DNA of 64,000 nucleotides from Litoribacter populi (GTDB lineage: Bacteria; Bacteroidota; Bacteroidia; Cytophagales; Cyclobacteriaceae): contig NZ_VMKN01000001.1 of NCBI RefSeq assembly GCF_007483685.1, positions 2,595,549-2,659,548 on the forward strand. Direction: 5' to 3'. Below are positions 39,737 through 52,680 of the stretch, in pieces; position 1 is the stretch's first letter; every line of letters starts with the position of its first letter. Under the pieces are notes generated by a model. That model saw only the letters and a program-made list of their open reading frames with translations, was not told the origin of the DNA and ran no database searches. The translations under genes were made by a program, and so were the position numbers.

Positions 39737-39983
39737 TGTATAAAAAGGCGTCTTTACTGTTCTCGTATTTAATTTTTCCCAATAAATAAAGGAAATTCAG
39801 AGCATAAGGAAAATTTTCCTTGGCATTTTCCCCGATTTCCTTGGTAACCCGCTCCAATAATTCATCGTATGAAACGGTGTAATAAGTGCTTAACTCTCCC
39901 AATATGAAGGAACTGATGTTGATCACAGAGTAATCTAAATTGGTATGTCTATCAGGTCGGATCATCTTTTTCCTATTAAACAT
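39726..39983 (-). CDS. ABC-3C middle component
   Basis: 85 aa (MFNRKKMIRPDRHTNLDYSV; then SSFILGELSTYYTVSYDELL; then NFPYALNFLYLLGKIKYENS). Small all-helical winged-helix-like proteins of this length and pattern are the middle component of ABC-3C systems, bridging effector and ATPase. Overlaps both neighbours, by 22 and 11 bases, so the trio is one translational unit. Confidence 0.78.
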   Translation of the reverse strand: MFNRKKMIRPDRHTNLDYSVINISSFILGELSTYYTVSYDELLERVTKEIGENAKENFPYALNFLYLLGKIKYENSKDAFLYNEA

Positions 39984-40909
39984 TCTACATACATATAGTG
40001 CAGCAAGGTCGACACATGTCTTTTGGTACCTCTTAAAGTGCTTTCTCCATCACAGATTTTCTTGTAGAGAAAAACAAGGATTTCTTCGAAGGAGCCAAAA
40101 TTACTCCTTTTTAGAGAAATCATTTCATTGATCTCTGCAGCAATGTCAAAATAAACCTCCTTATATTCTTCATTAATTGGATTCTCCAAAAATCTTTGGA
40201 TCTTATCAAAATCCATTGAAGATCTTCCTTGTATGTTATCCTCGAAGTATTCCCGCCCTAGATTATTTCTCTTGTTTTTCTTTTTAATCTGTACCAGGTC
40301 AAAATCATACTTCAAGGTGTTTGGATTCTGGCCAAACTCCTCTGGAAAGTTTGACAACTGTTCTTTAAACCCCAAGATCAAATCTTTTATTTCCTCATCC
40401 GAAAAATCAAACGGTATGTGAAAAAGATCGAGATTATATAACCTAATTAGCTTTTTATTTGGATTGATGTAATGATCATTTAGAGTTTCCTTCCCAATAA
40501 TCGTCACATTTTGAATGCCTGTCTCATAAACTAGTTTCTGCGTCAGCTTTTCTCCAGTAATTGCAGGATATTTCCGATTTGTAAACAGCAAATAACATTC
40601 TACTTCCCCGTTTTCCTTTAGCTTTTTTAATTTGGGGATTTCTTTGGAAATTATATGATTTGAAAAATCCGAATCTCCACAAGATGCTATGGGGTTAGTG
40701 GTATGTTTGGCTTGAATGATAAATTTTCCTTTCCAATTGGAAGAAGTCGTTGATGGGAAATTTTTCGCTTCGCCTTCGAATTTACCATCTCGGCCACCAT
40801 CCTTTCCTTCTGAAAAGGAAACCACTCCTATTCCTAATAGTTCTTGGCAAATTGAATTCACCAACCTTTCAAAAGTTTTACTGTCTAATAACTCAAGCCT
40901 ATAATCCAT
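39962..40909 (-). CDS. ABC-3C effector with N-terminal Mrr-like restriction domain
   Basis: 315 aa. Residues 1-170 are a PD-(D/E)XK nuclease domain: FSEGKDGGRDGKFEG (D37, D41) and GKFIIQAKHT (Q66-A-K68), with a GTGIQNVTIIG-like segment later. Residues about 225-315 form the C-terminal ABC-3C interaction domain (NEEYKEVYFDIAAEINEMIS ... VSTLLHYMYVECLIGKR). The nuclease would cut foreign DNA once released by the ATPase and middle component. First gene of the operon; a copy of the AAAAATACC inverted repeat lies 60 bases upstream. Confidence 0.83.
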   Translation of the reverse strand: MDYRLELLDSKTFERLVNSICQELLGIGVVSFSEGKDGGRDGKFEGEAKNFPSTTSSNWKGKFIIQAKHTTNPIASCGDSDFSNHIISKEIPKLKKLKENGEVECYLLFTNRKYPAITGEKLTQKLVYETGIQNVTIIGKETLNDHYINPNKKLIRLYNLDLFHIPFDFSDEEIKDLILGFKEQLSNFPEEFGQNPNTLKYDFDLVQIKKKNKRNNLGREYFEDNIQGRSSMDFDKIQRFLENPINEEYKEVYFDIAAEINEMISLKRSNFGSFEEILVFLYKKICDGESTLRGTKRHVSTLLHYMYVECLIGKR

Positions 40910-40968
40910 TATGCCTGTAAAAATTATTTTTTAAAAGAGTTGCTAAGAAAATGATTATCATTCATTAA

Positions 40969-40994
40969 AAAAATACCTTGATCAGGGTATTTTT
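40969..40994 (-). promoter_or_regulatory. AAAAATACC-N8-GGTATTTTT inverted repeat, copy 3
   Basis: Arms 40969-40977 and 40986-40994, perfect 9-bp pairing, centre TTGATCAG. It sits 60 bases upstream of the ABC-3C effector ATG and 39 bases after the stop of the AAA+ gene. Confidence 0.7.
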
Positions 40995-41032
40995 GCAGTA
41001 GGGAATTACCGTCCTACCCTTTAGCCTAATAT

Positions 41033-41902
41033 CTAGGAAAAATTAGAAGGGGTTTCTTGGTCGTCATTTGGATCGTATTTAAAAGTGAGCTGGTTCAAAC
41101 ACTCATCTACAATCCTCTTTACATTGATATCCGGCAGGGAAAGAATATACTTTCTCTGAATATCTAGCATAAACTCCTCGATCTCCGAAAAACTCAGTCC
41201 TTCCAGCTTCTGAGCTAAAAGGTTGTGTGGATGTTGCAATGAATATTTAACCTGATTTTCAAATTTCTTTAACCAAACGATGATCATTTGCCGGTTAGGC
41301 TTATCCAATTCCAATCTTACTTGGAACCTTCTCCAAACTGCACGATCCAGCAGCTCCGGGTGATTGGTAGCTGCCACCGTTACCACGTAAGATGGCAATC
41401 GGTCGATCTGCAGCAAAAGTGAACTCACCACTCTCTTGATTTCACCGGTTTCGTGGGTATCCCCACGCTCTTTACCGATGGCATCAAATTCGTCAAAAAA
41501 CAACACGCATTCTTGGGTACGGATAAAATCAAACATGGCCTTCAGCCTGGAGGCCGTCTCTCCCAAATAGCTCCCAATAATCCCATCATGCTGCTCACCT
41601 ACCAGGTCGGCAATGCTCTTCCTGTTTTCATCCGTCAGGATTACATCATCCAGGCTTTTCTGGGGATGTACCCTAAACAAAAAATTCTCAAGCTTTTCAT
41701 TAAGCAAATTGCCGGTATTCCGGTGGTTGGACGAAAAATTGGCGGGAGATTTCCGCAGCACATTTTCCAGCTGACCTGCCAGGACATGGTGCTGCTTATG
41801 CTTTTCTTCGGCAATAATGGATTCGGCAATCCTATTGAACAAAGCCGTATCACCGGCACTGCCCGCCTTCACCAATTTCACCAATAAATCTGCTCTCGCC
41901 AT
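41033..41902 (-). CDS. AAA+ ATPase with the Walker A region deleted
   Basis: 289 aa. The N-terminus (MARADLLVKLVKAGSAGDTA ... EEKHKQHHVLAGQLE) and the second half (DGIIGSYLGETASRLKAMFD; Walker B CVLFFDEFDAIGKERGDTHE; sensor AATNHPELLDRAVWRRFQVR) belong to a known AAA+ family usually paired with a subtilisin-like protease. Between GEQH (about 122) and DGIIGSYLGE the strand-loop that should carry GPPGxGKT (about 35-40 residues) is absent, in frame. No protease gene is adjacent. The protein cannot bind ATP normally; it is probably a decayed system. Confidence 0.8.
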   Translation of the reverse strand: MARADLLVKLVKAGSAGDTALFNRIAESIIAEEKHKQHHVLAGQLENVLRKSPANFSSNHRNTGNLLNEKLENFLFRVHPQKSLDDVILTDENRKSIADLVGEQHDGIIGSYLGETASRLKAMFDFIRTQECVLFFDEFDAIGKERGDTHETGEIKRVVSSLLLQIDRLPSYVVTVAATNHPELLDRAVWRRFQVRLELDKPNRQMIIVWLKKFENQVKYSLQHPHNLLAQKLEGLSFSEIEEFMLDIQRKYILSLPDINVKRIVDECLNQLTFKYDPNDDQETPSNFS

Positions 41903-44510: not shown

Positions 44511-45248
44511 TTAATTGTCCAACTTCTTTCTACTTCTCATAGATTCCCCTTCCAGTTCTATCCTGTGGGAGGAGTATACCAGCCTGTCAAGAACGGCATC
44601 TGCAATGCTGTCATCTCCGATGGTAGCATGCCACTGGGCCACCGGGATCTGTGAGGCTATGATGGTAGAGCTTTTCCCATACCTGTCCTCCATAACGTCC
44701 ATCAGGGCATGCCTGGCTTGGGTGTCCATGGGTGCCAGTCCAAAATCATCCAGGATCAATACCGCGGTTTTTTCCAGCTTTTTAAGTAGGTTATGGTAGG
44801 TGCCCTCCAGCTTTGCAAGCCGGACCGTGTCAAAAAATCTCGAGGTATTGTAATAAAGTGTTTTGTACCTGAACTGGCATGCCTTTACGCCGAGGCACTG
44901 GGCTAGGTGACTTTTTCCGCAACCTGTGGCACCGGTAAGTATGATGTTTTCCCTGTTGCGGATGAAGCCAAGCCCTAGCAGCCTTTCAAACACCGACCTG
45001 TCGAGATTACGTGAGGCATGGTAATCGATGTCAGTGGCGGCGGAAGCCTGCTTGAAACCGGCCTGGCGGATTAGGTTGTCAATCGTCCTGTTTTGCCTTT
45101 GTTCCCATTCGCTGTCGACCAACAAGGTCAACAGCTCATCGGCAGAAAATTCTTTGTAAAGGTTTTCGGTGAGCCGTTTGTGGTAAAGTTCGGCCATGGC
45201 CCCCATGCGCATCTGTTTCAATTTTTCGATTGTGTTGTATTCGTTCAT
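44511..45248 (-). CDS. istB: IS21 helper ATPase IstB
   Basis: 245 aa, complete. Walker A ILTGATGCGKSHLAQCLGVK (about 101-120) and Walker B TAVLILDDFGLAPMD (about 160-174), followed by EDRYGKSSTIIASQIPV. IstB is the AAA+ regulator that loads target DNA for the IstA transposase. It lies 43 bases after istA on the same strand, as usual. Confidence 0.95.
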   Translation of the reverse strand: MNEYNTIEKLKQMRMGAMAELYHKRLTENLYKEFSADELLTLLVDSEWEQRQNRTIDNLIRQAGFKQASAATDIDYHASRNLDRSVFERLLGLGFIRNRENIILTGATGCGKSHLAQCLGVKACQFRYKTLYYNTSRFFDTVRLAKLEGTYHNLLKKLEKTAVLILDDFGLAPMDTQARHALMDVMEDRYGKSSTIIASQIPVAQWHATIGDDSIADAVLDRLVYSSHRIELEGESMRSRKKLDN

Positions 45249-45291
45249 AGTTTATATGGATTGGTTTTTAATGTAGATGGGTTGAAGCCGC

Positions 45292-46830
45292 TCAACTGAA
45301 AAGCCCCCTGATGTTTTTGTGTTCAGGTGTCACTCGGTCCTCCGGAAAGGGGATCTCCTCCATATCCATTTTGTTCTGCAACACCCTTTCAAGGGTATGG
45401 TAAGAGGCTTTTTCGAATCCCAGAGCCCTTTTACAGGCCCTTTCCAGGCGCTCCGGTTCGTAGCTTTTCAAAAAGGCAAGGATCCCCTGGGCCTGCTTGT
45501 AGCCAATTTCGGGATAGTCATACTGCCCGATCAGCCTGCCGATGTACTCTTGGGTGTGGGGACCGACCTTTTGGGCTCTCCGGTGAAAAAATTCGGGGCT
45601 CCATTCATTGAAGTATTGGTGGCTGCTGGGCATATGGTCGCCCACTGTGATGTAGTGACCTGCTTTGAAGCTCCTTTTGTGGAAGGCTATCCTTTCCTGC
45701 CTGTGGAAGATCTCCACTATGTCCTGATTGTACTGTACTTCCACGGCCAGCCCGATATAGCGGTGGGGACAGCTGTAATAGTTCTTGTCCTCTCCCATGA
45801 AGACGTGGGAGGTTTTCTGGACTGTGGCTTTTTTATAGTTCCTGATACTATAAATACCACTTGGCAGGGGCTGAAGGAACTCTTTTTCAATATCGATGAA
45901 CTGGCTCCTCCTGCTGCCCTGTCCGTGGCTCAACAGATAATCGTTGAACTCCACCAATTTGTCGGCAATGGCATCGTTGAGCTCGGCCAGGCTGAAAAAG
46001 GTGTGGTTGCTCAGGGGGTAGTATATCCGTTGATAGACAATGGTTACCGTCCGCTCGACAAGGGCCTTGTCCTGTGGGCTGTAAGGGCGTGTGGGGTCAA
46101 GTGCACAGCCATAATGTTGTCCAAAATCGGCAAAAGTCTTGTTGAGTATGGGGGCATATTTTGAACTTTTGCTTACGGCAGACTTAAGGTTGTCCGGCAC
46201 CACCGCATAGGGGACGCCTCCTATCCATCCGAGGCAATGGACTAGGCAGCTGATAAAATCTTCACGGTTCTGGCTGGCCACGGCCTTGACGTAGGTATAT
46301 TGGCTACAGGGCATGATCCCCAAAAAAACCTCAACATCGATCTGTTCGCCGGTATGCCTGTCCACATAAAAGAGTTTCTTGCCGCAAAAGTCCACAAAAA
46401 GCTTTTCTCCGGCCCTGTGGGTCAGCTTTCCGCTAACATGGTGGCGTTTGCTCCATTGCCGGTAATGCCAGGTAAACTGGCTGTATTTATAGCCTTCCGG
46501 ATGTTTTGCAATATATGCCTTCCAAAGTGCCTGCAGGGTGCACCCGGGCTTTTTCATCTCTTTCTGGAAGTGTGGGAACTGTCCGGAAAGCTGTTCGTAC
46601 CGTTCCTTTTCCGTCTGGCTGTTTTGGGTGAAAAGTTCCTCAAGATCCTTTCCCTCAAGAGTCAGGAGCTCCCCGTACCCCAAGCCGAGTTCCTTGAACC
46701 GCTTGATGTACTCGTCTACGGTTTTCCGGTTGACACCCAAAAGGGCGGCCACCTTTCGGTTGCTCAAGCCTTTTTGCTTAAATGCTATCAAACTTCTTAA
46801 TTCCATGATGTTTATTCTTTGTCCTGCCAT
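45292..46830 (-). CDS. istA: IS21 transposase IstA
   Basis: 512 aa, complete. N-terminal HTH (SLIAFKQKGLSNRKVAALLG), DDE catalytic domain with D in KLFVDFCGKKL, D in YAVVPDNLKSAV and E in QDKALVERTVTIVYQ, and a C-terminal beta domain. It cuts and joins the element ends together with IstB. Confidence 0.95.
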   Translation of the reverse strand: MAGQRINIMELRSLIAFKQKGLSNRKVAALLGVNRKTVDEYIKRFKELGLGYGELLTLEGKDLEELFTQNSQTEKERYEQLSGQFPHFQKEMKKPGCTLQALWKAYIAKHPEGYKYSQFTWHYRQWSKRHHVSGKLTHRAGEKLFVDFCGKKLFYVDRHTGEQIDVEVFLGIMPCSQYTYVKAVASQNREDFISCLVHCLGWIGGVPYAVVPDNLKSAVSKSSKYAPILNKTFADFGQHYGCALDPTRPYSPQDKALVERTVTIVYQRIYYPLSNHTFFSLAELNDAIADKLVEFNDYLLSHGQGSRRSQFIDIEKEFLQPLPSGIYSIRNYKKATVQKTSHVFMGEDKNYYSCPHRYIGLAVEVQYNQDIVEIFHRQERIAFHKRSFKAGHYITVGDHMPSSHQYFNEWSPEFFHRRAQKVGPHTQEYIGRLIGQYDYPEIGYKQAQGILAFLKSYEPERLERACKRALGFEKASYHTLERVLQNKMDMEEIPFPEDRVTPEHKNIRGLFS

Positions 46831-47148: not shown

Positions 47149-47330
47149 TATTTATTATCTAAACATTACAATGTTTATAATATAGACATATTTATGTAAA
47201 ATGTAAAGGGGCGGTTTAAGTTTTTCCCGATAAATGCTTTGAGATTCTAGGCCTATTGGTTAACGGATTATAAGATTAAAAAAAGTTACTTCTGGATCTT
47301 CCAACCCTCAATGAGAGATTAATATGGTGC

Positions 47331-47415
47331 GTCCCGCTGGGACTTATAAGCAGGCAGGTGTTGCTGACCGCCGGTTGCCACCGGCGGTTATTATATCGGC
47401 CGCTCCTAACGGAGC
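47331..47415. repeat. cluster of three REP-like palindromes
   Basis: GTCCC-GCT-GGGAC (47331-47343), ACCGCCGGT-TGCC-ACCGGCGGT (47367-47388) and GCTCC-TAAC-GGAGC (47402-47415) lie within 85 bases. Such clusters are dispersed in Bacteroidota genomes. The rest of 47149-47655 shows no supported gene. Confidence 0.7.
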
Positions 47416-47655
47416 TGTGATCACCCGTTGTGCAAATGTCTTCAGACTTCGCACCCCTGAGATGTGGGTCTCCGACTCGAGGGTATCGGTTACTATACCA
47501 AAGCAAAGATTAGAAGAAGCACAGAGAGATTTAGGTGAGAAGTAGGAAGTGAAGTGAAAAATCGGCTGTCCTGAGAAAAAGTTCAACTCCCCGCTTTGCG
47601 ATTTCTAAACCCCTAAACCAGACCGCAGGGCGAATAACCTTCTAAACTACCCAGT

Positions 47656-48309
47656 TTAAGCCTGCACTTTCAAAAACACCTTCTTAATCGTACTGTTTTC
47701 CTCTACTGCTTTCACTTGGAGTATCAATGGTCTTTTTGATTTATGGAAGACCTTGGAGTGGACCATCTTGATATATCCAATTGGTGTATCTCCTTTCAAT
47801 ACCTTAACTGCAAACCGGTCATAGGGATTGTCCGGCTCTTTTTCATAGGTCAATAAATCTCCGGGACGTAATATTCCTGGCTTGAGTTTAAACTGACTCA
47901 ATCCAGCAAGGTCTGTCAAAAACCTAAGCTCCTTCACAGGATTGTATTCCGCCAAGAATTCAAAATTATCGGTAGGGTTCAAACCTTGGGTATGGGCGAG
48001 CATGTAGTATTTATCCCCTTTAAACTTGGGGTCAATTTCCCAAAAATCAAAAAGGTCTTGAATATCTGACCTTTCTTGTTTCATAATCCTTTGACCAAAA
48101 ATTTCCAATACCCCGGATTTATATTCCTTTTCTAAATCCGGAAATTCAGTGTAAGGTGAAAAACCATCCTCCTGGGCTTGCTTAACCCCTTCAGACAAGT
48201 ATTTGAAAAGAACCCCATTGGTAGCGCTTCTTTTCAAAACGCCAACCCGATGTCTTCTTTTCCCCTGACCTTCTCTCCAGGTTAAATAAATAAGCCCAAT
48301 TTCTTTCAT
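47656..48309 (-). CDS. HIRAN-domain protein, partner of the HipA-like kinase
   Basis: 217 aa. The C-terminal half is a HIRAN domain (LRPGDLLTYEKEPDNPYDRF followed by AVKVLKGDTPIGYIK), a DNA-end or damaged-DNA binding fold. The N-terminal half (RVGVLKRSATNGVLFKYLSE; TEFPDLEKEYKSGVLEIFGQ) resembles the HipA N-terminal subdomain. It overlaps the kinase gene by 4 bases (ATGA). The pair may work as a split HipA-type toxin with a DNA sensor; which is the antidote is unknown. Confidence 0.72.
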   Translation of the reverse strand: MKEIGLIYLTWREGQGKRRHRVGVLKRSATNGVLFKYLSEGVKQAQEDGFSPYTEFPDLEKEYKSGVLEIFGQRIMKQERSDIQDLFDFWEIDPKFKGDKYYMLAHTQGLNPTDNFEFLAEYNPVKELRFLTDLAGLSQFKLKPGILRPGDLLTYEKEPDNPYDRFAVKVLKGDTPIGYIKMVHSKVFHKSKRPLILQVKAVEENSTIKKVFLKVQA

Positions 48310-49376
48310 AATAAGCTTTTGTAAATCTCATTTAGATGTTGAAAACGCGAAATTAGCAATTTCGTAATCAACTCTTTTCTTTCACTTGGTAATTTCTTGT
48401 CCGGAGCAACTTTTTGGAGTTCATCATCTACAGCAAATACTATTTTCCGGATTTTGTCTGGGTCGAACTTTTCTACTATCCGCTTTAAAGGCCACCTGAC
48501 GTATTCTTGATATTGATCTATAGCAGCAATTTTTTCAATAAGAAAAAAATGATTCAGCTTTTCGCCTTCCCAATGAATTTCTGCTTTACTCTTTCGTACA
48601 TAGCTATTAAATGCTTGCTTATCCTTTAATAATAAAGCCACTCTTTCATCATTGAGTTCCCGACCAAAGCAACATCCACTATCATATATCGGAGCAAACC
48701 GATTTTCTTTGGGGATCATTAATCGTGCCTGAACAATTTCTTTCTTGAGTCTTCCTTCTTTATTCGTATACAGGAATTTGATGATTTTTTTAACAAAATC
48801 AGGAAACCCATCTAAACTTTCATTTTCTACAGAGTCTGAAACTTCAGCGATAGATTGAGAAAAGGCGGAATGTTTAGTGATGATTGCCCAATTTTCCTGA
48901 TGACGGTCTCTATTGCCTATTAAAGCATCAAATACGATTACTTCTATTATATTTGAAATGTATTTTTCTAGCTTCAATACGGTTAATGATTCAGCAATTA
49001 AATGAAAGCCATATAAGTGCCTAGTTTTTGTATCTTCAGGTCGAAATGCAGAGTCAACAACCTGAAGGTATTTTCCCCCTTCAATTAATTCTTCTCCTGA
49101 TATACTTATCATTGATTTTGAGATACAACCAACGATGTCATTTCTAATAGCTATATGATAAGGCAAAATATCAAAGCCACATAATGCTCCAACTTCATAA
49201 GCAATTATCTCGGACCAGAACTCGTATTTGTAATCCATCTTACCCTTTTTGTAAGACTGCTTAAAATAATAAAGCTCCCCATCCTCTGGATTTTGATATA
49301 TTTTCTTATCTCTGGTGCCCCCTGTATTCCACCAAGGTTGTTCGTTCCAGGTATTGATTTCAAAAAGTTGTGCCAT
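48306..49376 (-). CDS. HipA/CtkA-like serine/threonine kinase
   Basis: 356 aa. Glycine-rich start WNTGGTRDKKIYQNPEDGEL YYFKQ gives the P-loop-like region with Lys; the catalytic loop is DALIGNRDRHQENWAII (about 163-179) and the Mg site YDSGCCFGREL (about 241-251). It lacks the HipA N-terminal subdomain, which seems to be on the neighbouring gene. HipA family members phosphorylate a translation factor or aminoacyl-tRNA synthetase and stop growth. Overlaps the HIRAN gene by 4 bases, and lies 11 bases after the hsdR stub. Confidence 0.8.
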   Translation of the reverse strand: MAQLFEINTWNEQPWWNTGGTRDKKIYQNPEDGELYYFKQSYKKGKMDYKYEFWSEIIAYEVGALCGFDILPYHIAIRNDIVGCISKSMISISGEELIEGGKYLQVVDSAFRPEDTKTRHLYGFHLIAESLTVLKLEKYISNIIEVIVFDALIGNRDRHQENWAIITKHSAFSQSIAEVSDSVENESLDGFPDFVKKIIKFLYTNKEGRLKKEIVQARLMIPKENRFAPIYDSGCCFGRELNDERVALLLKDKQAFNSYVRKSKAEIHWEGEKLNHFFLIEKIAAIDQYQEYVRWPLKRIVEKFDPDKIRKIVFAVDDELQKVAPDKKLPSERKELITKLLISRFQHLNEIYKSLL

Positions 49377-49387
49377 CTTAATTGGAA

Positions 49388-49654
49388 TTACAACCGCTCT
49401 CCATAACTAACCTGGTAAAAAGCCCTCCCCAGATCCTCATATTCCAGCGAAAGCGACAGTTCCGCGCAAATACGTTCCACATCCCCATCCGAAAGCACCG
49501 GATTGAGCCCATGGATCCTTTCAAAAAGAATGTCGGTAAAGATATTCGTCTCCGGGTCCCATTGCCGCCCCTTCAGCGAAAGGTAAGTATACCCCAACCT
49601 CACCAGGTGCAACACAGCCGGTATTTTAACTCTAGAATCCTCGTTGAAAGCCAT
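49388..49654 (-). pseudogene. N-terminal stub of type I restriction subunit HsdR
   Basis: 88 aa from the ATG at 49654. FNEDSRVKIPAVLHLVRLGY, then TYLSLKGRQWDPETNIFTDI matches the N-terminus of type I HsdR proteins, but translation ends after SLSLEYEDLGRAFYQVSYGERL, so the nuclease and helicase (about 900 residues) are lost. No hsdM or hsdS genes are present. Likely a remnant left by replacement with the kinase-HIRAN pair. A 12-base G run lies 62 bases upstream. Confidence 0.75.
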
Positions 49655-49715
49655 AGGCAAAAGTTACTTTAAAAATGGTGATGGGAAGATATTAAGGAAT
49701 TAGGGGATTTGCAAA

Positions 49716-49872: not shown

Positions 49873-51117
49873 TTATTTTGGTAAATGATATAATTGAATT
49901 GCTAGTTTTAATTCTCGGTTCTTATCTCCGTTTATATGAAATCGATAGTTATACCAATTCTCATCTGTTTTATCTACAAATCCCAAGTAATTTTCATGCT
50001 CTTTGGTGGATCTCTCAACTTTCTCAAGAATAGAGGAAAAGTCTTTTTGTCGAACAAACATAACAACTGACGCTTTAGTATCTCTCCATGTCAAGTAATT
50101 CAATAGTTGGGAAATTGTCTTCAGATACCCTTTTTCCCCACTCCAAAATTTACATTCAGCAATGAAAATAACTGAACTGTCATACCTTAATTGAATGTCC
50201 GTTTTACCTGATTTATTGAAAGTCTCTCCGCTCGCACTTCCAAATTCGAAATTTGGATCAAGAGTCATTAGAATATGGTCTCTCAAATCTTCCTCTTCTT
50301 TGCCCTTGTACACACTCGGCATCCTTTCAAAGTTTTTACCGATATCATTAATTAATTTTAGAATATGTCGATAGTTGTTGTCATCAAGTGTTGGTTCAGG
50401 TTTAAACCCTTTTTCTAATACAGATGGTTTTATTGAGAGCTTTTCTCTAAATCTCGGCTGTGGAACGGAAAATGTCTCTGAAGTATTGGATTTCTTTTTT
50501 AGGGGAACACCCAAAGATGACAATAAATCATTTTTAGCAAAGAGCTTTTGTTTCCTTTGACTTAGAAGCGATTTTGTATTTGAAGCAAGTGAATTATTAA
50601 AATTTATTATGTCGTTTCTAAGAGTTTGATAATTCCGATGAACCCCACTTACCTCATTGTCAAAATCTTGCTTTATTTTTTGTGGGTCATTATTGAAGTT
50701 GATAAACTCGGCAACGATTGTATTCCCTTTAATGTGAAAATTTCCTCCACCACCAAGAGATATTGAGGAAGCCGGACAACTTGATAACAAATCGGCATCT
50801 CCTTCGACTGGTATTATAAACTGAATTATTTCCTTCTTGTACTTTTTACCTTCATATACATAAAAAGACATAGGAAAGTACTCCGCTGGAATATCCTCTT
50901 CGTAACTGTCCGCATAAACGTCCTCGAACATAATTTCAGGAACTTTCATTAAATATTGTTCAGTTATGTGGTTAACATATTCAGTTTCGTTCACATTCAA
51001 AATATAATCCTCTGTCTCGCTTTCAACAGTTCTTTTGATGCTATCTAAAGCAGATTCAAATTTATCTGAGATTCTTCCCGAACTAAATATTCTCGTACGA
51101 CTATTATATCTATACAT
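49873..51117 (-). CDS. PD-(D/E)XK nuclease-like protein
   Basis: 414 aa. The nuclease core is near the C-terminus: EEDLRDHILMTLDPNFEFGS, then KSGKTDIQLRYDSSVIFIAE with ECKFW (about 315-340), giving D...ExK. The N-terminal 200 residues (IIQFIIPVEGDADLLSSCPA; a beta-rich, glycine-containing part) are unrecognised. A lone one-gene cassette: no methyltransferase next to it, and repeat-like sequence on both sides. Possible single-protein defence nuclease. Confidence 0.7.
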   Translation of the reverse strand: MYRYNSRTRIFSSGRISDKFESALDSIKRTVESETEDYILNVNETEYVNHITEQYLMKVPEIMFEDVYADSYEEDIPAEYFPMSFYVYEGKKYKKEIIQFIIPVEGDADLLSSCPASSISLGGGGNFHIKGNTIVAEFINFNNDPQKIKQDFDNEVSGVHRNYQTLRNDIINFNNSLASNTKSLLSQRKQKLFAKNDLLSSLGVPLKKKSNTSETFSVPQPRFREKLSIKPSVLEKGFKPEPTLDDNNYRHILKLINDIGKNFERMPSVYKGKEEEDLRDHILMTLDPNFEFGSASGETFNKSGKTDIQLRYDSSVIFIAECKFWSGEKGYLKTISQLLNYLTWRDTKASVVMFVRQKDFSSILEKVERSTKEHENYLGFVDKTDENWYNYRFHINGDKNRELKLAIQLYHLPK

Positions 51118-51274: not shown

Positions 51275-51778
51275 TCATTCATTGTCAGGTAGAAAATTAA
51301 GTTCTTTTGGATATTTATTAAAAGATTTGACCTTCTTTTTCGCTTCATTGTAATGACTTTCTCTAACATACATCGTTTTTAAAGAATCCCACCTTGATTT
51401 AACTGAATTAATCTTGTCGTCAAGTTCTGGGTTATTAATTTGTGTTGTCAAAATCATTTCTATTTCATGCCGAATTCTCTCATACTCAATCCCTAATTCT
51501 CTGTGTTTCTCTGCCTTTTCACCTGGTCTAATAAACGATTGATAACCTGTTAAAATAGCTACAGCAAACAGAATTAAAGGCAAAAGATATTCTTTGACCC
51601 AAGGTTGTTCGATGAAAGGAAATCGATAAGTAAAAGCAACAACAGTAGATAGAATAAAAGCCCAAATACCTGCCCTACGCTCTGTGTGACTGAAAGATAT
51701 AGATTGGAAACAATGCGCATATTCAAGCTGATGAACCTTTCTCATCCAATCTAATAGCATAAGTTCCTTCTTACTCAT
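51275..51778 (-). CDS. SLATT-domain two-helix membrane effector
   Basis: 167 aa. Trp-containing N-terminal helix (LLDWMRKVHQLEYAHCFQSI), two membrane helices (about 38-52 and 63-84: AGIWAFILSTVVAFTY; LLPLILFAVAILTGYQSF) and a C-terminal coiled coil with HRELGIEYERIRHEIEM. This is the SLATT layout of membrane-permeabilising effectors in nucleotide-linked conflict systems. It overlaps the cupin-like gene by 4 bases (ATGA), so the two are a two-gene system. No CD-NTase or SLOG gene is nearby. Confidence 0.78.
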   Translation of the reverse strand: MSKKELMLLDWMRKVHQLEYAHCFQSISFSHTERRAGIWAFILSTVVAFTYRFPFIEQPWVKEYLLPLILFAVAILTGYQSFIRPGEKAEKHRELGIEYERIRHEIEMILTTQINNPELDDKINSVKSRWDSLKTMYVRESHYNEAKKKVKSFNKYPKELNFLPDNE

Positions 51779-52680
51779 AATTGACTGTCGATTTTATCCA
51801 ATAGGTATATTGGAGAGATATTCATTTTTCTATTTACTTCGGATTCGGTGATTTGCTTTGGTCCGATAACAAAAGATTCTCCTAAACCATCTTTTCCTGT
51901 GAATGAAAAAAATGTGGCTGAGCATTTCGGTGAATTTTTATGACCTGATTTATGAAGCTTACTTGGCTTAATTTCATAAACCGCCATTTCATGATGCACT
52001 TCTTCGCTGACTTTTATAAGTTCTGCATTAATATTCTTATTCACAGCTTTGGAGGTGTGTTGGTTAACTTCATTCAGAGAATCATTATAGATAACTTTAA
52101 AGAATGAGTGATTTGCATTTTTGGAATTCTTAATATACTCAAATCTGTCATTGACTATTTTCCCTGTTACTACCCAACTCTTTGCGAAAAAAGTATGAGA
52201 ATGGATCGAAAAGTCTTCCACTTTTTGCAAGTCCATATAATCATCGAGTGAATCATCCCAAATGTGCAAGCGTAAAAAGTCAAAGGTTTCTAATGTCTCT
52301 TCCTTCTTGTATATTGGAATAGATAAAAAGCCCTGTGAACCAATAGATGATATAATATAGTTTGAGGGAATTATTCTAATTGATTCTGAGATTAGTCGCC
52401 AAACTGCTTTTGTGTCAAGATACAAATTATTGTCTCTACATGAAATTATTTCACGAGTTCCTAGAAGTCTGTATATTAACGATTTTACAAACTTGTCAGT
52501 TTGCTTTTTTATAGCTTTTTGAAGGTCAATAATTGTTTGTCTTTCGCTTTTCTCAAAAAAGATTCTAAGCAGAACATCTTTAGAAACGATTTCATTTTTA
52601 AAGCTTTCGCTATAACCTTTAAGTATTGGCTCGTAAAAGCCAATAAACTCTTCTTTTGTGATTATTTGATTCTGCTTCAT
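51775..52680 (-). CDS. cupin-like (cysteine dioxygenase-like) protein paired with SLATT
   Basis: 301 aa. The first 115 residues are helical. Then LRLHIWDDSLDDYMD, FSIHSHTFFAKSWVVTGKI (H160-S-H162) and HHEMAVYEIKPSKLHKSGHKNS (H243) have the spacing of metal ligands in a double-stranded beta-helix (cupin) fold; strand VHHEMAVYEI and FTGKDGLGESFVIGP close the barrel. No named family recognised. It starts 24 bases after an imperfect palindrome and overlaps the SLATT gene. Inferred role: sensor or ligand-making partner for the membrane effector. Confidence 0.6.
   Translation of the reverse strand: MKQNQIITKEEFIGFYEPILKGYSESFKNEIVSKDVLLRIFFEKSERQTIIDLQKAIKKQTDKFVKSLIYRLLGTREIISCRDNNLYLDTKAVWRLISESIRIIPSNYIISSIGSQGFLSIPIYKKEETLETFDFLRLHIWDDSLDDYMDLQKVEDFSIHSHTFFAKSWVVTGKIVNDRFEYIKNSKNANHSFFKVIYNDSLNEVNQHTSKAVNKNINAELIKVSEEVHHEMAVYEIKPSKLHKSGHKNSPKCSATFFSFTGKDGLGESFVIGPKQITESEVNRKMNISPIYLLDKIDSQL

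Follow-up and report, generated by a model that had tools for sequence, protein, structure and literature searches.

A hipIN-family gene pair of Litoribacter populi as a candidate kinase–lid switch with a HIRAN domain

The window, i.e. the whole 64,000-nucleotide stretch of Litoribacter populi DNA that was analysed, carries on its minus strand an overlapping gene pair which is a member of the published hipIN family and not a system of a new kind. With slightly better than even confidence, this pair is read here as a two-gene, toxin–antitoxin-like abortive-infection switch, in which HipN would serve in trans as both the lid and the DNA sensor of the kinase HipI. The domain make-up of the two proteins, as read from profiles and the predicted fold, the invariance of the catalytic residues, the tight linkage of the genes, the existence of natural fusions and the defence context were observed. 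Both ORFs claimed for 47656–49376 in the preliminary description were found there on the minus strand, sharing 4 nt, and its notion of a split HipA, with the lid segment fused to a HIRAN domain in the partner, was backed by the comparison of profiles, by the predicted structure and by residue conservation. The features are listed below with the basis of each assignment in brackets.

48306..49376, minus strand: hipI, HipA-type Ser/Thr kinase core of 356 aa without N-subdomain-1 (ORF, family profiles, invariant residues)
47656..48309, minus strand: hipN, HipS-like and HIRAN domains, 217 aa, putative antitoxin/sensor (ORF, Pfam, PADLOC, predicted fold)
48306..48309, minus strand: ATGA, 4-nt overlap of the hipI stop and the hipN start (ORF coordinates)
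48888..48914, minus strand: HipI catalytic loop NRDRHQENW, residues 155–163 (invariant residues)
48693..48887, minus strand: HipI stretch from the catalytic loop to the Mg-binding motif, residues 164–228, 65 residues (alignment)
47944..48297, minus strand: HipN HipS-like (HipA N-subdomain-1-like) domain, residues 5–122 (hhalign, fold comparison)
47659..47937, minus strand: HipN HIRAN domain, residues 125–217 (Pfam PF08797, fold comparison)

The hipIN and hipL families and their HipS-like and HIRAN domains were described by Gerdes, Baerentsen and Brodersen (mBio 2021, PMC8262856), and the sections of that paper cited here propose that phage DNA ends activate the hipIN kinase in abortive infection, neutralisation by HipN being a proposal as well. 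The preliminary description independently arrived at this hypothesis, already in print, and no experimental test of hipIN was found in the openly licensed PMC literature. As presented in PMC8262856, hipIN is similar to the window pair in gene order, in the domains of both proteins, in the lack of N-subdomain-1 and in a Thr (T21) beside the Gly-rich loop; the core Hip motifs without N-subdomain-1, the downstream HipS-like partner and the C-terminal HIRAN domain that mark hipIN were all found in the window. In the published Hip tree, hipIN is placed in main clade XI. The difference lies in kinase length, which is 356 aa in the window and 313–409 aa in 49 members of its clade against the 279–321 aa published for four short-kinase families, and the main text of that paper contains no word starting with "bacteroid" or "restriction". 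New here are the counts of partner linkage, the long-insert clade, the asymmetry of broken genes and the type I restriction neighbourhood. PADLOC identified the window kinase as PDC-M03A (2.6e-58) and the adjacent HipN as PDC-M03B (1.4e-27), the two components of a computational candidate defence system which is named in no openly licensed PMC paper found; when 8 fusions, 31 kinases and 31 HipN (70 proteins) were scanned, 39 matched PDC-M03A and 39 PDC-M03B. NCBIfam gave no match for either HipI or HipN, and the PHROGs matches were to families of unknown function only, one of which, phrog_26212, matched different parts of HipI and HipN.

Several related systems share part of this architecture. 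According to the relevant sections of PMC8262856, hipL has the same three domains in the order kinase–HipS–HIRAN, but in one gene instead of the two in the window, while hipJS combines a related kinase with a downstream HipS, as in the window, and differs by having no HIRAN domain. The hipBST system, as outlined in the cited parts of PMC10627512 and PMC9325769, also has a split kinase with a separately encoded lid, but its lid gene is located upstream and lacks a HIRAN domain, an HTH gene is present and the lid has a Glu-x-Trp motif. Membership of the window pair in hipBST was rejected because its lid gene is downstream and no HTH match was found among the scanned neighbours, and membership in hipBA because the HipA N-subdomain-1 is in a separate gene. 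The HipB-type HTH gene said to be lacking was indeed not found: none of the neighbours scanned with Pfam matched an HTH family, the small ORFs being judged by eye only. A hipBST-like locus (HTH-like gene, HipS and HipT) is present in the same genome outside the window (G000:C1:2850380-2851434, L003) and offers a contrast to the hipIN pair. The kinase–HIRAN pairs in the Actinomycete HIRAN and HipA operons, predicted as defence in the cited section of PMC11706625, resemble the window pair, but they have a third gene for a deoxydinucleotide nuclease (diDNase). HIRAN, HipA and PDC-M are not mentioned in the text available for PMC11514479, and the corresponding text of PMC11090510 mentions HIRAN and not HipA.

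With the single HipI sequence, the Pfam HipA_C family scored 22.7 bits, below its cut-off of 30.5. For profile work, the sequences were clustered at 85% identity with exclusion of contig-end and short ORFs, reducing 143 HipN to 82 and 138 kinases to 84 (window included), and removal of one broken kinase (L073) by hand left 83 kinase rows. The profile of 83 kinases found CtkA best in the PDB (8.8e-25), followed by a Golgi-casein-kinase-type protein (1.1e-4) and, more weakly, HipT (0.008) and HipA (0.05). CtkA (PDB 3akj, titled a Helicobacter pylori proinflammatory kinase) is thus the nearest solved sequence relative. Residues K39, E56, D150, N155, D157, R158, H159, E161, N162 and D232 of HipI were among those invariant in all 83 aligned kinases, as were G20, K24 and W163, and the invariance of the catalytic residues indicates a strong constraint on the active site. 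The glycine of the Gly-rich loop is residue 20, the N-terminal subdomain being missing. The kinase part of a natural fusion, a relative and not the window protein itself, gave alignments with HipA chains that began no earlier than HipA residues 67–149 (mostly 93–125), with CtkA as the nearest structure (Z 24.8–26.1).

A quick tree, rooted at the midpoint, was made from 96 kinases, with fusions trimmed to the first 322 residues and the hipJS-like L249 to the part following its 110 N-terminal residues. In it, the window kinase fell into a mostly Bacteroidota clade of 50 rows (SH-aLRT 97), which also included a Planctomycetota MAG (L053) and a viral contig (L093). Catalytic loop and Mg-binding motif were 20–87 residues apart (median 65) among 49 members of this clade, compared to 13–28 residues (median 14) in 34 kinases outside it; in the window HipI this long insert, 65 residues, adjoins the active site. 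Two other loci from the window's phylum, L008 and L009, fell elsewhere in the tree and had a short insert of 17.

HipN is predicted to represent the missing N-terminal subdomain of HipA followed by a HIRAN domain. The latter was recognized by Pfam PF08797 directly (E 1.2e-6, 28.7 bits, cut-off 24.7), and the AlphaFold2 model built with 82 sequences had a mean pLDDT of 95.3 and a pTM of 0.90. In this predicted model, residues 5–122 superimposed on HipA residues 2–107 (Z 11.6, rmsd 2.6, 104 aligned) and on HipS chains (7vkb_B, Z 10.9; 8ezr_A, Z 10.5), and residues 125–217 on the HIRAN domain of HLTF (Z 10.8, rmsd 2.2, 88 aligned), on 3k2y (Z 13.5) and on Rad5 (Z 9.3), with a match to the Hachiman defence protein HamB (Z 7.1) that is too weak on its own. 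Foldseek alone placed the HLTF HIRAN domain on top, with E values from 0.006 for HipA and of 0.02 for HipS. By hhalign, HipN residues 1–126 matched a HipS profile with a probability of 83% (E 8.9e-6), the sole control of that comparison being the HIRAN half (0.8%); the 19-row HipS profile was needed, a single HipS sequence against the HipN profile giving a probability of 1% (E 0.054). The search of the PDB with the 82-HipN profile returned HIRAN proteins and weak others, including neither HipS nor HipA, and the HipS likeness therefore rests on the profile–profile and fold comparisons. Residues W11, Y37, F50, R74, R80, D114 and G178 of HipN were invariant in 82 of 82.

In the hipBST system, a Glu and a Trp of HipS are set against the HipT active site. 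This Glu-x-Trp is absent from HipN, where the aligned stretch is K77-Q78-E79 beside the invariant R80, so inhibition, if real, must use other residues; the invariant R74 and R80 may form a new plug in place of the HipS Trp. In the HIRAN domain, N161 was kept in 79 and D164 in 78 of the 82 HipN, and in the profile search of the PDB N161 aligned to HLTF N91, a position at which the double mutant N90/N91 of HLTF loses HIRAN function according to the cited part of PMC4666394. With the HLTF contact residues taken from Achar 2015, the position of Tyr72 was a Tyr in only 4 of the 82 HipN, and that of Tyr93 was Tyr in 25, Phe in 19 and His in 14 (Y163 in the window). In the section of PMC7804152 cited here, the HIRAN domain of HLTF requires the 3' hydroxyl of ssDNA and that of yeast Rad5 does not, binding ssDNA without end preference and with no preference for 3' ends. 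Since HIRAN ligands thus differ, a DNA-end ligand of HipN is something that we infer.

Toxicity of the kinase, its target, its inhibition by HipN and the DNA trigger are likewise conditional parts of the proposed mechanism. HipI would stop growth, its phosphorylation target probably being part of the translation machinery, as are GltX for HipA and TrpS for HipT. HipN would give in trans the lid that HipA has in cis, its HipS-like domain docking near the Gly-rich loop of HipI and keeping the kinase inactive. The HIRAN domain may bind DNA ends (3' termini or single strands of very short length), for example those arising from restriction enzymes or from breakage during phage replication; with DNA bound, the lid would be weakened and the kinase freed. 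Should DNA fragments prove to activate the kinase, one small protein would link restriction to abortive infection. Handles for testing are provided by the intact pair among defence genes, by HipI D157, by HipN R74, R80 and N161, and by the natural one-chain version.

The linkage of the two genes was followed in 161 kinase-anchored loci, comprising 79 genome loci from the best 80 of 292 matches, 79 viral loci and 3 further genome loci which may overlap the 79. Near-copies were frequent among the viral loci, and since the genome loci come from the best 80 of 292 matches, the counts describe the nearest relatives and not the whole family. HipN was located downstream of the kinase in 144 of these loci, fused to it in 15 and absent from 2, both lying at contig ends; recurrence in 159 of 161 loci, with the genome loci drawn from the best 80 of 292 matches, argues that the pair is not a product of chance. 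The spacing between hipI and hipN was at most 10 nt and mostly an overlap in all 130 intact pairs, being –4 in 69 of them. No relative on viral contigs was confirmed by the single-sequence kinase search or the HipN-alignment search, while the kinase alignment succeeded. Both profiles were run against 395 genomes of the window's phylum, Bacteroidota; full-length HipN (E<1e-50) was found in 4, and the kinases with E<1e-60 were in the same 4 genomes. A further 29 genomes had a match to the HipN profile, covering the HIRAN part only in 28 and the HipS-like part only in 1. The three kinases ranked after these (E 4e-32 to 4e-21) had downstream a HipS-like segment without HIRAN, recognized by profile in two genomes and by eye in L249, and resemble hipJS.

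Fusions in the order kinase–HipS–HIRAN were found at 15 of the 79 viral loci, and a scan with the fusion alignment gave 15 loci, all on contigs found before. Clustering at 90% identity reduced them to 8 distinct prophage proteins of 546–554 aa, which nested in the quick tree among two-gene kinases from Pseudomonadota and viral contigs (SH-aLRT 97 for the fork of the 8 fusions and 99 for the fork with two-gene L097 and L112); the one-gene form therefore looks derived in this set. A naturally fused protein from a viral contig was modelled in place of the two-chain complex of the window, using 70 rows hand-picked from alignments A3, A4 (kinases) and A5. Its model (pLDDT 92.5, pTM 0.85) is compatible with one packed unit, the docking position not being given by pTM.

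The same linkage could also be expected if HipN were not an inhibitor but a required targeting subunit, whose HipS-like domain completes the kinase and whose HIRAN domain brings it to DNA ends, where the kinase would phosphorylate a protein of repair, of replication or of a phage. Such a role agrees with N-subdomain-1 being integral to HipA, with the fused versions, from which the domain cannot leave, with the absence of the inhibitory Glu-x-Trp of HipS and with the fact that kinase and partner are almost never apart. The state of the genes points in the other direction. In 138 scorable two-gene loci (those left of the 161 after removal of 15 fusions and 8 loci at contig ends), scored by length as broken when the kinase was below 290 aa or HipN below 200 aa, 130 pairs were intact, 8 had a broken kinase with full HipN and none showed the reverse, which is expected of an inhibitor and not of a needed activator. 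If breaks followed gene length alone, the chance of 8 against 0 would be about 0.02, albeit for an asymmetry that was spotted in hindsight. A single break was seen in four of the eight broken kinases (L067, L071, L090 and L171), possibly a sequencing error, and several cases were MAGs or viral contigs. For a small sample, the asymmetry fits a toxin with its antitoxin. Moreover, the HIRAN-less hipJS-like loci L250 and L251 keep the lid without the DNA domain. The targeting role is an unlikely alternative.

As judged from its gene content, the window is a defence island. It includes genes for a CD-NTase accompanied by a SAVED effector, for cytosine methylases together with an EcoRII-type enzyme, for a DUF2357/PD-(D/E)XK protein alongside an AAA-type protein, and for PDC-M68B and AbiU2. 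Next to hipI, outside the module, there is one more feature.

49388..49660, minus strand: truncated hsdR, N-terminal part, type I restriction remnant (ORF, weak Pfam)

This fragment stops 11 nt before hipI and has no second copy in the genome. It matched Pfam HSDR_N over profile positions 2–79 with E 0.02, below the cut-off, and its residues 22–83 shared 48% identity with the beginning of the L017 HsdR frame (cut at the locus edge), which is identified by Pfam as HSDR_N plus SWI2_SNF2. The short HsdR piece was considered as a third gene of the module and ruled out, since its sequence looks like the truncated N-terminal end of a known protein, weak as its Pfam score is. In the best 80 of 292 matches, 9 nearest relatives had at least 3 kb of upstream sequence, and 8 of them (L014, L016–L019, L021, L023 and L024) had type I restriction genes upstream on the same strand, directly adjacent in 7 and with ORFs between in L018; L020 had none. 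These genes were checked by Pfam for L014, L016 and L017 and assigned by BLAST cluster for the rest. The order in L017 was hsdR-hsdM-hsdS-hipI-hipN, with 3 nt from hsdS to hipI, and the window arrangement could be the product of a deletion that began early in hsdR and stopped just short of hipI.

Over all 79 genome loci (best 80 of 292 matches), any of three restriction-type clusters was present in the flank of 22, with uncertain cluster links in L076, L086 and L089, and in none of the other 57, the flanks extending up to 6 kb per side, less in some (66 of 79 loci with at least 5.5 kb upstream), and these being raw counts. Such a cluster was directly upstream (same strand, at most 100 nt) in 10 of the 79 genome loci from these best 80 of 292 matches. 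The pair was located behind an N4/N6 DNA methylase gene in L025, and in L091 between an SNF2-type helicase gene and Eco57I-type cluster genes, with an adjoining MZB-domain helicase, a gene set which we take to resemble DISARM. L090, whose kinase is broken, likewise has hipIN between helicase-type and Eco57I-type genes in a DISARM-like set. Two hipJS-like kinases were also found behind restriction-type genes (TaqI_C above the cut-off in L250, MmeI_TRD just below it in L251). In eight loci from Flavobacterium and a Flavobacteriaceae MAG (best 80 of 292 matches), the module was behind one common non-restriction gene. By eye, HTH-like genes of 132 and 129 aa were directly upstream of the kinase in L031 and L039, i.e. 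in 2 of the 79 genome loci (best 80 of 292 matches). The placement behind restriction and DISARM-like genes in part of the family suggests where the signal may originate.

One speculative and doubtful extension of the switch is that the pocket of the HipN HIRAN domain would read deoxydinucleotides or 3' ends released from invading DNA digested by restriction systems and exonucleases, making hipIN a second, arresting layer built into restriction and DISARM-like operons. An adjacent diDNase, where present, would be the off-switch, and R74/R80 would replace the Trp plug of HipS. This idea was drawn from the placement of part of the relatives in restriction operons, from the published HLTF HIRAN crystal, described in the cited section as containing a dinucleotide, thought to be co-purified, in a cavity fitting only one, and from the dinucleotide-specific DNases that adjoin HIRAN–HipA pairs in Actinomycetes, a link left open by the authors in the part of PMC11706625 referred to here. 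The missing counterpart of Tyr72 counts against a dinucleotide.

The same neighbourhoods would suit hipIN as a guard of restriction-modification in type I or other methylase operons, rather than a sensor of phage DNA, firing in response to cuts in host DNA that result from failed modification or from interference by an anti-restriction protein. The upstream type I genes of 8 out of 9 closest relatives (7 adjacent; best 80 of 292 matches), the methylase of L025, the SNF2/Eco57I-type setting of L091 and the hsdR fragment 11 nt upstream in the window all agree with it, but the 57 of 79 genome loci (best 80 of 292 matches) with no restriction-type cluster in the flank do not, and in the window the restriction genes were lost with hipIN intact; we hold this role to be improbable. 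That the window hipIN is no longer functional, being a decayed remnant or a neutral passenger left from a vanished restriction operon, as the rearrangement indicated by the hsdR fragment and the nearby IS21 element and the short HIRAN piece behind an HsdS-like gene with no kinase match in a same-genus genome (L010) might suggest, is highly improbable, since both genes are full length and have all family-invariant residues and the usual overlap.

The HIRAN piece of L010, with 43 residues matched, is located behind the HsdS-like gene and a 237-aa gene, and is an apparent relic of the module. In the window, an IS21-type transposase gene and its helper (the latter named by eye) are located beside hipIN at 44511–46830; the transposase, farther out, gave HTH matches. 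An intergenic repeat element is present at 47240–47560, with partial copies of 80–86% identity in six other places of the genome. An Mrr-like/ABC-3C CTD12 protein (PDC-S73) adjoins an IetA-like AAA ATPase at 39962–41902, and a single-gene defence candidate, PDC-S54 (5.6e-148), is located at 49873–51117. Finally, at 51275–52680 a SLATT_4 gene overlaps a 301-aa gene without a match above any family cut-off, and the two possibly form a two-gene effector unit.
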